From NCBI RefSeq assembly GCF_030316135.1, contig NZ_CP128185.1, positions 4,340,001 through 4,404,000 on the forward strand: a stretch of DNA of 64,000 bases, written 5' to 3'. The position numbers and the translations under genes are program-made. Position 1 is the stretch's first letter. Every line of letters starts with the position of its first letter. Under the pieces are notes generated by a model. That model had not been told where the DNA came from. It saw nothing but the letters and a program-made list of their open reading frames with translations, and ran no database searches. This DNA comes from Aliiglaciecola sp. LCG003. Its GTDB lineage: Bacteria; Pseudomonadota; Gammaproteobacteria; Enterobacterales; Alteromonadaceae. Positions 31,721 to 35,379 of this stretch are shown here, piece after piece.

Positions 31721-32932
31721 CTAGATGGCAATGCGTTCATTGAAAAAGCGATTAAAATCTAGGCCAAATTCACTCGCGGTTGCGCCTTTTTCTATTTTCA
31801 ACTGACTGTTTTTCAGATCAATATTTTTTATAGGAAGGTAAGTTTCATTGCGAGCCGAGTAAAATACCTTAACAATCGGACTCAATGGCAGATCTTCATT
31901 TTGATGCACAACCATACCGATTTGGCCATTGGTTAACTTCACCAAGCTCCCAGCAGAATAGACGCCCACACACTTAACGAATTTTTGGACCAAATCACGG
32001 TCGTATAAATCAGGCGAATCGCTCAATAGAATTTTTAGTGCTTTTTGCGAGGGCATACCGGCTTTGTATACCCGATCAGCGGTGATAGCATCATAAGTAT
32101 CTGTAATTGCGATCATACGGCCATATTGACTGATTTCATCACCTCGTAAACCTTCAGGGTAGCCGTACCCATCTAAACGCTCATGATGCTCAGCCATAGT
32201 GCGGATTATATGTTCAGGTAACCCCATTTCTTCTAGTGTCTGGATCCCGTAATAAACATGATCTCGCATAATGTTCATTTCAGGCTCAGTTAATTTACCC
32301 GGCTTATGTAAGATCTCATCCGGAACTCTAATTTTTCCAATATCGTGTAAGAAACCCGCTAATGCTAGTTCCTGTACTTCAACAGCGTCCATTTCTAAAT
32401 ATTTAGCAAAATTAGCCAGTAAAATCGCCACGTTAAGAGAATGCTCAAAGAGGTAGGTATCTTTTTCGCGGATCTTGGTTAGGCACATTAGCGCATTGGG
32501 ATTGCGGTCCATAGAGCCAACTAACTCTTCTGTGAATTCTTCTGGCAGTTTCAGATCAATCGGCAAACCTTTGGCCACAGCGTTGAGCATACGCCGTTGA
32601 ACGGCCTTACCTTTTTCATGCAGCTTTTTAGCTGTGGTGATTTCCGAATCAAAACTAACATGCTGCTGTTCTGGTTGCTGCGGGGCCTGCTGTGCTTCTA
32701 TTGGATCGGCTGCACTGGCAATGTCTGCTTCATCTACTTCGCTTGGATCTGCTGTGAATGCTTTGTCAGTATCCACTAGTAGTCTCAATATTCCCTGCTT
32801 GCGCAACTGAGATACTATCGCTCTTTTAGTGACCTTTCCCTGACTTTTTATTTTCAAGTTACCACGTTGTTCAACTATGCCTTGAACATACATCCCTGGT
32901 TTTAATTCATCAATGGAAATTTCTTTAATCAC
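31721..32932 (-). CDS. HD-GYP domain protein with DUF3391 N-terminus (c-di-GMP phosphodiesterase)
   Basis: 403 aa. An N-terminal DUF3391 region (ISIDELKPGMYVQGIVEQ) is followed by a linker with A/Q/P-rich residues and the HD-GYP domain: FLHDIGKIRVP (HD), HHERLDGYGYPEGLRGDEI (HHExxDGxGYP). HD-GYP enzymes hydrolyse cyclic di-GMP, so it likely lowers this messenger and affects motility or matrix. It is not near a GGDEF gene. ATG 32932 is a standard start. Confidence 0.93.
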   Translation of the reverse strand: MIKEISIDELKPGMYVQGIVEQRGNLKIKSQGKVTKRAIVSQLRKQGILRLLVDTDKAFTADPSEVDEADIASAADPIEAQQAPQQPEQQHVSFDSEITTAKKLHEKGKAVQRRMLNAVAKGLPIDLKLPEEFTEELVGSMDRNPNALMCLTKIREKDTYLFEHSLNVAILLANFAKYLEMDAVEVQELALAGFLHDIGKIRVPDEILHKPGKLTEPEMNIMRDHVYYGIQTLEEMGLPEHIIRTMAEHHERLDGYGYPEGLRGDEISQYGRMIAITDTYDAITADRVYKAGMPSQKALKILLSDSPDLYDRDLVQKFVKCVGVYSAGSLVKLTNGQIGMVVHQNEDLPLSPIVKVFYSARNETYLPIKNIDLKNSQLKIEKGATASEFGLDFNRFFNERIAI

Positions 32933-33036: not shown

Positions 33037-33384
33037 CTAGTACTTTAGTTTAATCAGTAAGTCACCCAGCTCAGGCCGCCATTGAAAAATAGCTAATTTC
33101 ACGCGGTGATTAAGTACCGCCACCTCTTCTTGCTGCAATAGCGCTTTTTGTTGTTCGCCAATTTCGCTGCCAACAGGAAAAGCAATTTGTCCTGTTGAGC
33201 GCAGTACTCGATACCAAGGAACCTGCATATCATCTGGGGCATAGCCAAGGGCTTTGCCCACTAGACGCGCTCGGCCCGGCAACCCTGCCAAGTCAGCCAC
33301 TTGACCGTAACTAGCCACCTTTCCGGCAGGAATAGCTTGCACCGTATGCCAGATTTTTTGGTAGTAACTTACACTAGCGGCCAT
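33037..33384 (-). CDS. Alkyltransferase-like protein (ATL, MGMT fold)
   Basis: 115 aa with the MGMT fold, IPAGKVASYGQVADLAGLPG and a VPWYRVL motif where active MGMT has PCHRV. The cysteine is replaced by tryptophan, so it cannot transfer alkyl groups to itself; ATL proteins (YbaZ-like) instead flag O6-alkylguanine for nucleotide excision repair. ATG 33384 lies 6 bp downstream of the Wzz-fusion stop, so it may be co-transcribed. Confidence 0.85.
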   Translation of the reverse strand: MAASVSYYQKIWHTVQAIPAGKVASYGQVADLAGLPGRARLVGKALGYAPDDMQVPWYRVLRSTGQIAFPVGSEIGEQQKALLQQEEVAVLNHRVKLAIFQWRPELGDLLIKLKY

Positions 33385-33390
33385 GAGCGT

Positions 33391-35379
33391 TTAGACCAGT
33401 GAATATTGCAGTTCAAGTTGATCGATGTCTTTTGGTTCGCCACGGCGATTTACCTGGCGGTACAAGCCTAATTCGGCTGGACTTACATACCCCGCAACCT
33501 GCTCTAAGTCATTCAACCTTGCGCCTTGTGAGACTAAAAATGTCAAATAGGTATGCCGTAAGGCTGCCATTGAAAACTGCTCTGGGTAAGCTAAGCCCGC
33601 ATCATGCGCCATATTGATCATCATCTGATCTAGTTGTTGTACGTCGAGACGGCTACTTAATAGCACTTTTTCAGGCGGTTGATTAAGGCTCAAGCCTATC
33701 AGCAATTGCGCACAATCATCTTTCAACCTCAGGCTGCGAGGAAACTCACCGTTCACAAGCAAGGTGTTTGTTTGACTATCTACATCAGCTACTGTCAATG
33801 CCAGTAGCTCGTCTGTTCTGACGCCGCTAAGGAGTAGATGCAATACTATTTTTCCGTCTCTATTCGCTACTTTGTATAACTCTTTTACTTCGAAATCGCT
33901 AAGCAGTCTAGCGGCATTGGCTGCCTCAGCCTGGCCTAACTGTAAGGGTGTATTTTGCTGTTCAAGCATCGCCATCTGTTGTTGCTCTAAAGCCTGCTGT
34001 GCGGCTTGCTGATTGAATGTTAAACCTGTAGGCGGCACGACCGTGTAGCTTGTCATAGTTGCCGCAGGCTGCTTGTGGCGATGAATAAAGCTAAATAGTA
34101 GCAATGCAAACAGGCTCATTAAAACGGCTGCGCCGCCAGCAATTGCCGTATCACGCCAATAGTGCGGAGCGATGGGGTAACTGGGAATAAAGGGCGCTTC
34201 CAACACATTGATTTTGGCTTGAAACGGCTTTTGCACTTCTTTTTCTACCAATTGATCTTTTAATTGTTGCGCCTGCTCTTCAAGCTGTTTGAGTGAGCGA
34301 GTTTGACGGCCATATTCTTCCAACTTCTGATTAAATAACTGCGCCTCACGCCCCAACTCATTTAGTTGTATTTCTAGCTGCTTTTGTTTGTCTTTCGAGG
34401 CCAATACGGTACGCTGTAAATCAGCTACAAACTTTTCCTGGCTCTCCGCCGATATTTCAATAAGGCGGTTTTGCAAGCTGTCTAGGTTACGTTTTTGATT
34501 GACAATAGCTGGGTCCAAATTCATATATTCCGGAGTATAACGTTGCGCCAACTGTGCGAGGGTAGCCTCTAGATCGCGGATCGCTTTTTTCACCTCATCC
34601 AAGCGATTTTTATCCACAGGATGAGTGACTTGTTCACCCTTGGCAATGCTCTGCTTCACACTATTGAGGGTTGAAGTAGATTCTGCGTGCTGAGATTCTG
34701 CCTGATCCAAAGCTGCACCCATGCTCTTAATTTTTGACAGAGCCCGGTTTTCATCTCTTTCCATCGAAATGATATTGTTATCTTCGCTGTATTGCTCCAC
34801 CAGCAATCTTTGTTCAATGATTTTCTCTTCAAGTGCGATCAGCTTTTGTTGCCCAAGTGAAATGTCTTGTTCGGTGTTATCTTCAGTTTCCTCTGCCAAT
34901 AAACTCAAATACAGCGCCAACCATTGTTCTAAAACCGGTTGTAAAACCTCTGCTTGCTCACCTGTTGCATACAGATTGATGATCCGGCTGCTTAGTTGCT
35001 CTTCAGTGAATAGCATCTGTGCCAGCATTTCAGGATTGAGATTAAGGCTGTATTCTTCATCGAGCTTTAGACTTAGCATTTCAAGAATGCGATAACTGGT
35101 AAGGCGCTTACTATTGAGGGTAATTTGCTCTTCAGGCACCGCGGTTTGTTCGTTGTTAAGCGCTTGGGCATAACTAAAGTGGATAATCGCCTGACTCTGA
35201 TAAATAGGTGCACGGGACCAAATCCAAATCATCGCCGTGACAAAAATCACTAGGAATGTCGCCGTGAGTACCCACCATTTCTGTTTTTGTAGCCTTTTCG
35301 CTTCCTGTGTGGCAATTTGATCTGAGCTACCCGCACCGTTTTGTGACGGGATCACTTCTACATTTTCACTAAAAGACAT
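33391..35379 (-). CDS. Wzz/GumC-type chain-length protein fused to a degenerate tyrosine-recombinase domain
   Basis: 662 aa. Residues 35-55 are the first membrane helix, 56-400 a periplasmic part with a long coiled coil (about 165-385), then PSYPIAPHYW and a second helix (about 410-432): the layout of a polysaccharide co-polymerase. In place of the usual cytosolic tyrosine kinase, residues about 490-642 resemble a site-specific recombinase: LLLSGVRTDELLALTVADVD (Arg521), AALRHTYLTFLVSQGA (Arg608-His609), and YVSPAELGLY (Tyr640). The histidine of HxxR is Ala605, and LGH is altered to AGY, so catalysis is doubtful. I read this from sequence similarity only. It might bind DNA or partners. Confidence 0.85.
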   Translation of the reverse strand: MSFSENVEVIPSQNGAGSSDQIATQEAKRLQKQKWWVLTATFLVIFVTAMIWIWSRAPIYQSQAIIHFSYAQALNNEQTAVPEEQITLNSKRLTSYRILEMLSLKLDEEYSLNLNPEMLAQMLFTEEQLSSRIINLYATGEQAEVLQPVLEQWLALYLSLLAEETEDNTEQDISLGQQKLIALEEKIIEQRLLVEQYSEDNNIISMERDENRALSKIKSMGAALDQAESQHAESTSTLNSVKQSIAKGEQVTHPVDKNRLDEVKKAIRDLEATLAQLAQRYTPEYMNLDPAIVNQKRNLDSLQNRLIEISAESQEKFVADLQRTVLASKDKQKQLEIQLNELGREAQLFNQKLEEYGRQTRSLKQLEEQAQQLKDQLVEKEVQKPFQAKINVLEAPFIPSYPIAPHYWRDTAIAGGAAVLMSLFALLLFSFIHRHKQPAATMTSYTVVPPTGLTFNQQAAQQALEQQQMAMLEQQNTPLQLGQAEAANAARLLSDFEVKELYKVANRDGKIVLHLLLSGVRTDELLALTVADVDSQTNTLLVNGEFPRSLRLKDDCAQLLIGLSLNQPPEKVLLSSRLDVQQLDQMMINMAHDAGLAYPEQFSMAALRHTYLTFLVSQGARLNDLEQVAGYVSPAELGLYRQVNRRGEPKDIDQLELQYSLV

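Follow-up and report, generated by a model that had tools for sequence, protein, structure and literature searches.

The cytosolic parts known from polysaccharide co-polymerases (PCPs) are mainly tyrosine autokinases. PCPs of the Wzc/GumC type and the XrtA chain-length determinant (TIGR03007) span the membrane with two helices and have a long, helical periplasmic part, and Wzc bears its kinase at the C-terminus. Xer proteins clamp DNA with their N-terminal half, their catalytic domains contact each other and partners through one surface, and XerC and XerD use their C-terminal tail for contacts with each other. In the exosortase system, chain-length determinant proteins are found among the exopolysaccharide neighbors, according to one report (PMC1569441). 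Another (PMC10516654) describes MrpR as a protein of recombinase fold that lost catalysis and became a DNA-binding regulator.

The gene described here lies in a 64,000-nucleotide stretch of the genome of Aliiglaciecola sp. LCG003, hereafter the window. Its product is predicted to share the two membrane helices and the long helical periplasmic part with the PCPs named above, but in the place where Wzc has a kinase it has a domain of recombinase fold. Such a fusion of a PCP with a tyrosine recombinase is not described among the literature matches listed, a scope that leaves out subscription papers and database annotations.

The fusion gene

The fusion is encoded by an intact, single open reading frame (ORF) on the minus strand, with an ATG start, 662 codons and zero internal stops. 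An earlier reading, made from the sequence alone, had placed this ORF at 33391-35379 and given its product two membrane helices. The coordinates are correct, and hydropathy likewise predicts two helices, near residues 35-55 and 410-432. The features of the locus are as follows.

33391..35379, minus strand: whole fusion gene, 662 aa plus stop (ORF, Pfam and NCBIfam matches)
35215..35277, minus strand: first membrane helix, about residues 35-55 (hydropathy)
34165..35211, minus strand: PCP part, predicted to be periplasmic and to form long helices, about residues 57-405; Pro-rich sequence at its end precedes the second helix (TIGR03007 match at 27-375, Wzc profile match, helical full-length model)
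34084..34152, minus strand: second membrane helix, about residues 410-432 (hydropathy)
33928..34077, minus strand: linker, predicted to be cytosolic, residues 435-484, Gln-rich and of variable sequence (alignment; pLDDT under 50 at 433-492)
33394..33927, minus strand: pseudo-recombinase (Xer-type catalytic) domain, residues 485-662 (PF00589 and XerA profile matches, AlphaFold2/Foldseek, lost catalytic residues, acidic pI)
33394..33447, minus strand: C-terminal tail, residues 645-662, resembling the tail of Xer-type recombinases (alignment of 37 relatives and control recombinases)
33037..33384, minus strand: alkyltransferase-like gene (O6-methylguanine methyltransferase DNA-binding domain), downstream, 6 bases after the fusion (HMM)
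31721..32932, minus strand: next downstream gene, HD domain with DUF3391 (HMM), which we take to be of the HD-GYP type

The gene that diverges upstream of the fusion is presumably of the DTW type.

The co-polymerase half

Residues ~27-434 of the window protein are PCP-like. TIGR03007 matches residues 27-375 with an E-value of 8.5e-6 and is also found in 26 of 30 family members at E<=0.01. A family profile of 30 relatives (A2; 30 of the 32 distinct proteins, the near-copies L008 and L011 being omitted) was compared with PDB sequences, among which Wzc is the best match in this half (E 5.1e-5). By profile similarity, the fusion therefore belongs with the PCPs. It is not a member of the TIGR03007 equivalog, because its 24.3 bits fall far under the cut-off of 278.85, whereas all 31 genomes that carry the fusion also have a separate TIGR03007 gene that exceeds the cut-off, a count for which there is no background rate. 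When the PCP profile of the fusion family is used instead, it scores the XrtA PCP of one fusion genome (G198, of genus g8) at 53.9 bits and that of the window's own genome at 26.9 bits; two other PCPs of the own genome score 18.1 and 0.5 bits.

The Wzz family of Pfam (PF02706) scores 15.4 bits against a cut-off of 25.5 at residues 28-75 of the window protein. It matches 16 of 30 family members at E<=0.1, and in a six-frame search of the 31 genomes it rises above the cut-off in five fusion genes (G616, G652, G037, G058 and G009). No kinase family is among the Pfam and NCBIfam matches of the window protein, and thus no tyrosine autokinase domain was found there.

A full-length AlphaFold2 model (pLDDT 64.3, pTM 0.30) returns XerA and XerD in a Foldseek search and no PCP at E<=0.001; a Wzc complex appears at rank 50 with E 0.35, and the model is poor. 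Within its PCP part, blocks at residues 181-370 have pLDDT values of 72-92, and values are low at 51-170. We dropped any reading of the domain arrangement from this model as too weak.

The recombinase half

The C-terminus matches the phage integrase family PF00589 at residues 493-644 with 40.1 bits (cut-off 27.1), and 24 of 30 family members match at E<=0.1. Several Xer models of NCBIfam also match this part of the window protein, and the XerA-type model is found in 23 of 30 members at E<=0.01. Compared with PDB sequences, profile A2 retrieves XerA (E 8.3e-10) and other integrases in this half. An AlphaFold2 model of residues 484-662, built from 12 sequences, is of higher quality (pLDDT 82.4, pTM 0.78), and Foldseek places XerA at the top of its PDB matches (E 5.8e-9, TMq 0.72), with phage and transposon integrases, XerD, XerH, Cre and the dead-recombinase repressor MrpR/YopR among the others. 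The domain thus has the tyrosine recombinase fold, as the sequence-only reading had proposed when it likened the cytosolic end to a phage-integrase catalytic domain and suggested a fold search. That reading also proposed an HMM search for PF02706 and PF00589 in the same protein; in the window protein, PF00589 alone exceeds its cut-off.

The match is confined to the catalytic half of Xer proteins, and their N-terminal half is absent. The fold, the LRHTY region of box II, the position of the tyrosine, and a C-terminal tail with an aromatic residue or His followed by Pro are common to the fusion and to XerC, XerD and XerA. Unlike these recombinases, the fusion family has lost Arg I and the His of HxxR and lacks the N-terminal half, and its domain is acidic and joined to a membrane protein.

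Loss of catalysis and of basic charge

Our alignments hold 36 proteins, 32 of them distinct, to which five distant relatives were added to give 37; the distant five were taken from the upstream stop codon, without choice of a start. Arg I is present in one of the 37, which is the window protein itself (Arg521), and the others mostly have A, S, N or T. None of the 37 has the HxxR histidine (Ala605 in the window protein). Arg II (Arg608) is retained in 35, the His next to it in 33, and Tyr640 in 34; Arg548 is kept in 36 and Arg641 in 33. The family therefore does not have the catalytic set of an active tyrosine recombinase, and, judged from these residues, the domain is catalytically dead. The sequence-only reading was correct that the HxxR histidine is replaced by Ala605 and the LGH histidine by Tyr (Tyr631). 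It also listed Arg521 as kept, which is true of the window protein and not of the family; this Arg is probably a chance reversion.

The C-terminal domains have a pI of 4.50-5.48 and a net charge of -12 to -5 (n = 32). By contrast, 23 control recombinases, measured from the start of the match to the end of the protein, have a pI of 7.99-10.3 and a net charge of +1 to +14, and the two sets do not overlap. The controls are loci that the family and order surveys returned for their resemblance to the query and so are not a random sample; a coiled-coil match (L041) was omitted. All 23 have Arg I and the HxLR motif. As measured by whole-domain charge, the fusion domain lacks the basic character of DNA-binding recombinases.

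These data bear on the possibility that the protein is a membrane-tethered recombinase that still works. Tyr640 and Arg608 are retained in nearly all relatives and the window protein has Arg521, as would be expected of such an enzyme. However, Arg I is gone from 36 of 37 proteins, the HxxR histidine from every one, and the basic charge is missing, so that the sequence family speaks strongly against activity. We reject an active recombinase on residues and charge and consider it very improbable.

Loss of catalysis need not mean loss of DNA binding. MrpR/YopR of the Bacillus prophage SPbeta resembles the fusion domain in having a recombinase fold, lost catalysis and another job, and according to PMC10516654 it is a DNA-binding repressor. 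The dead domain of the fusion might likewise bind DNA, and thereby link the envelope to the chromosome or repress genes. The appearance of MrpR/YopR among the Foldseek matches, the retention of Arg608, Arg548 and Arg641, and the gene with a DNA-binding-type alkyltransferase domain that comes next in 14 of 31 loci would all fit such a membrane-tethered protein. However, the fusion domain, unlike MrpR, is acidic and part of a predicted membrane protein. All 32 domains share the acidity, outside the range of the 23 recombinases, and the DNA-clamping half of Xer proteins is missing. The acidic domain disfavors this explanation, which we regard as unlikely. The sequence-only reading had offered a partner-binding or a DNA-binding module, and of the two the former fits these findings.

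The tail has also been retained. Its Pro, which follows an aromatic residue or His in most relatives, is found in 34 of 37 proteins (the window protein has Tyr-Ser). Among the control recombinases, 11 of 23 end in an Xer-like tail and 12 differ.

The whole fusion, including its pseudo-recombinase domain, is under purifying selection. Median dN/dS is 0.036 for the C-terminal domain and 0.041 for the PCP part in 23 of 190 pairs, chosen by a whole-gene dS of 0.05-1.6; 21 of these pairs lie among seven Alteromonas-type loci (L006-L012) and so are non-independent and come mostly from one lineage.

Conservation and origin

The fusion is widely conserved, with full-length copies in 31 genomes (own included) from six families of one class. 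In the own family, 23 of 246 genomes, counting that of the window, have a full-length homologue, with identity down to 32%; matches were obtained in 32 genomes, of which nine are weak and partial (E 2.4e-4 to 9.1e-4) and were not counted as fusions. A second family of the order adds three fusion genomes in a survey of 345 genomes; 25 of the 345 gave a match, 18 of them weak (E 5.5e-7 to 9.7e-4) and likewise not counted. A class sample of 369 genomes adds five more from four further families. In a phylum sample of 398 genomes there were three matches, none of them outside the class. In all of these surveys, three or four first-look candidates were scored per genome.

A scan of genome contigs also found 11 loci assigned to Aliiglaciecola, Alteromonas, Alteromonadaceae or Gammaproteobacteria, which match residues 1-661 at 57-70% identity. 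Four of these contigs (L002-L005) encode the same proteins as four of the surveyed genomes, and the two sets are thus not independent.

The sequence-only reading had asked whether homologues might carry the two parts as separate adjacent genes, in which case the fusion would be an assembly join. No separate-gene form was found among the strong matches of the family, order, class and phylum surveys, all of which span both halves. An assembly join, split genes or a chance ORF is already refuted by 37 distinct proteins of equal architecture with a dN/dS of about 0.04, and we give it next to no weight. The same reading proposed a survey of homologues for co-occurrence of the two parts and for retained catalytic residues. 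The fusion does recur in relatives, although with the HxxR histidine lost and, outside the window protein, Arg I as well.

In a tree of the 37 fusion domains and the 23 recombinases, one branch parts the two sets with a support of 100/100, which is compatible with a single origin of the fusion. A mobile-element gene was rejected, because tblastn searches (E<=1e-5) of 72,556 plasmid and 50,697 phage records gave no match.

One copy (G141; L026/L070) is broken by an in-frame TAA and was left out of the alignments for this reason, and other members of the genus have intact copies.

Exosortase co-occurrence and polysaccharide genes

An exosortase match is found in all 31 fusion genomes, 27 of them over the cut-off, compared with 91 of 312 genomes in the class sample (59 over). 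Exosortases are common in the own family (176/246 genomes). Even so, TIGR03109 at E<=1e-10 detects them in 23 of 23 fusion genomes and in 153 of 223 others of that family (Fisher p 4e-4, relatedness ignored), a comparison that takes its 246 genomes to be those of the fusion survey and in which 50 match-free genomes are not itemized. At this threshold, the figures are 8/8 for fusion genomes beyond the own family and 91/312 for the class sample. Fisher's test against the class sample, from which two own-family and three fusion genomes were removed, gives p 5e-5, again with relatedness ignored, and the simple product for the five families outside the own family, each taken at 86/307, is 0.0017. 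Above the curated cut-off, TIGR03109 is present in 20 of 23 fusion genomes and 109 of 223 others of the own family, in seven of the eight fusion genomes elsewhere, and in 59 of 312 genomes of the class sample. Four of the 31 (G163, G198, G214 and G809, a group that includes the g8 locus) have exosortase matches below the XrtA cut-off only. An autokinase of the XrtA type is present in both genomes that were examined for it (G000 and G198).

Polysaccharide-type neighbors surround the fusion in three genomes of genus g8. At the locus of G198, about 14-18 kb to one side, are genes for an export protein (TIGR03027), a PCP (TIGR03007), an autokinase (TIGR03018) and a sugar transferase (TIGR03013). 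On the other side, from about 20 kb, are an exosortase (over the cut-off of TIGR02602 and below that of TIGR03109) and two PrsT genes. Between these two groups are genes that HMMs identify as glycosyltransferases, a flippase-like protein, a Wzy_C protein and a deacetylase. To judge from coordinates, G163 has a similar arrangement, with a TIGR03007 PCP and an exosortase about 21 kb either side of the fusion. In G214, the fusion, the XrtA PCP and the exosortase lie on separate contigs, and therefore linkage is not visible there. Elsewhere, G652 has a glycosyltransferase gene and a polysaccharide deacetylase gene close to the fusion, and in G809 the gene directly after the fusion encodes a glycosyltransferase.

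In the window's genus and in most loci examined, the fusion lies outside polysaccharide genes. No glycosyltransferase is apparent among the ORFs that surround it in the window, two of which were scanned with HMMs. The sequence-only reading had reported this lack of flanking glycosyltransferases, which appears to hold for the window and does not hold for some relatives. The link to a surface-polysaccharide system that it suggested could not be seen from the window alone. Such a link is supported by the exosortase co-occurrence and by the one genus with polysaccharide neighbors.

A different explanation would be that the protein descends from a PCP but has abandoned polysaccharide assembly and now serves as an envelope scaffold, its association with exosortases reflecting shared genome types. 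The low scores to curated PCP models, the position of most loci outside polysaccharide regions and the frequency of exosortases among relatives are as this explanation would predict. However, it does not readily account for the polysaccharide genes that surround the fusion in the three genomes of g8, for those near it in G652 and G809, or for the exosortase in every fusion genome outside the own family. We therefore regard an envelope scaffold as doubtful.

Proposed role

We class the fusion as a variant of PCP and not as a recombinase. The explanation toward which we lean is that the window gene product is an inner-membrane protein of the PCP kind and acts as an accessory PCP of exosortase-linked systems, in which an Xer-derived pseudo-recombinase fills the slot of the Wzc kinase and works by protein contact. 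In the predicted layout, a short N-terminus leads into the first membrane helix, and the periplasmic part that follows is long and helical. The chain then enters a second membrane helix through Pro-rich sequence and continues as a flexible linker to the pseudo-recombinase. The PCP half and the exosortase link indicate a role in exosortase-associated exopolysaccharide assembly. Because an XrtA-type PCP is also present in every fusion genome, and its kinase in G000 and G198, the role of the fusion would be that of an accessory co-polymerase or of an alternative one.

We expect the pseudo-recombinase to cleave no strands and, most likely, not to bind DNA; it would instead be a module for protein contact. 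This mode of action appears most likely because the domain is acidic, catalytically empty and without the N-terminal half, yet is selected and keeps box II and an Xer-type tail. Contact would most likely be made through the surface by which Xer catalytic domains bind one another and their partners, because the tail of these proteins has been kept while the catalytic set and basic charge were lost. The domain might tie together the cytosolic ends of a PCP ring, or it might dock a regulator, for example the XrtA-associated autokinase, which is a separate protein. In either case, the outcome may be a tuning of polymer assembly by an accessory second PCP.

A bolder version holds that a dead, membrane-anchored Xer copy keeps the surface for Xer-Xer or Xer-FtsK contacts, so that the PCP ring engages the machinery of chromosome dimer resolution or closes by cyclic exchange of tails. 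We consider this quite unlikely. If it were true, exopolysaccharide assembly would be coupled either to the site of division or to a ring like that of recombinases.

That relatives in several families have preserved the fusion suggests that a recombinase was put to a second use, as the module by which a surface-polysaccharide machine binds a partner. If this conserved replacement holds, the cytosolic slot of PCPs accepts quite different modules. A recombinase fold that serves something other than DNA would also be unusual, and the fusion would offer a handle on the control of exosortase-linked exopolysaccharide systems.

Adjacent genes

The alkyltransferase-like gene is directly downstream of the fusion in 14 of 31 loci, where it begins within 17 bases or overlaps, where each ORF is taken to begin at its first start codon. 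The close spacing or overlap suggests that the two genes are co-transcribed. An obligate operon partner was rejected, because the gene is directly downstream in these 14 loci only. Neighbors of the fusion differ in the Alteromonas-type loci (L006-L012).

In G198, the two genes of the PrsT family, which encode TPR proteins, are in tandem and adjoin the exosortase (L097:12826-18415). Also in this genome, two 391-aa ORFs with identical first 60 residues (L096:14077-15252 and L097:8461-9636) flank the fusion region in opposite orientation, about 32 kb apart, and are possibly an insertion-sequence pair.
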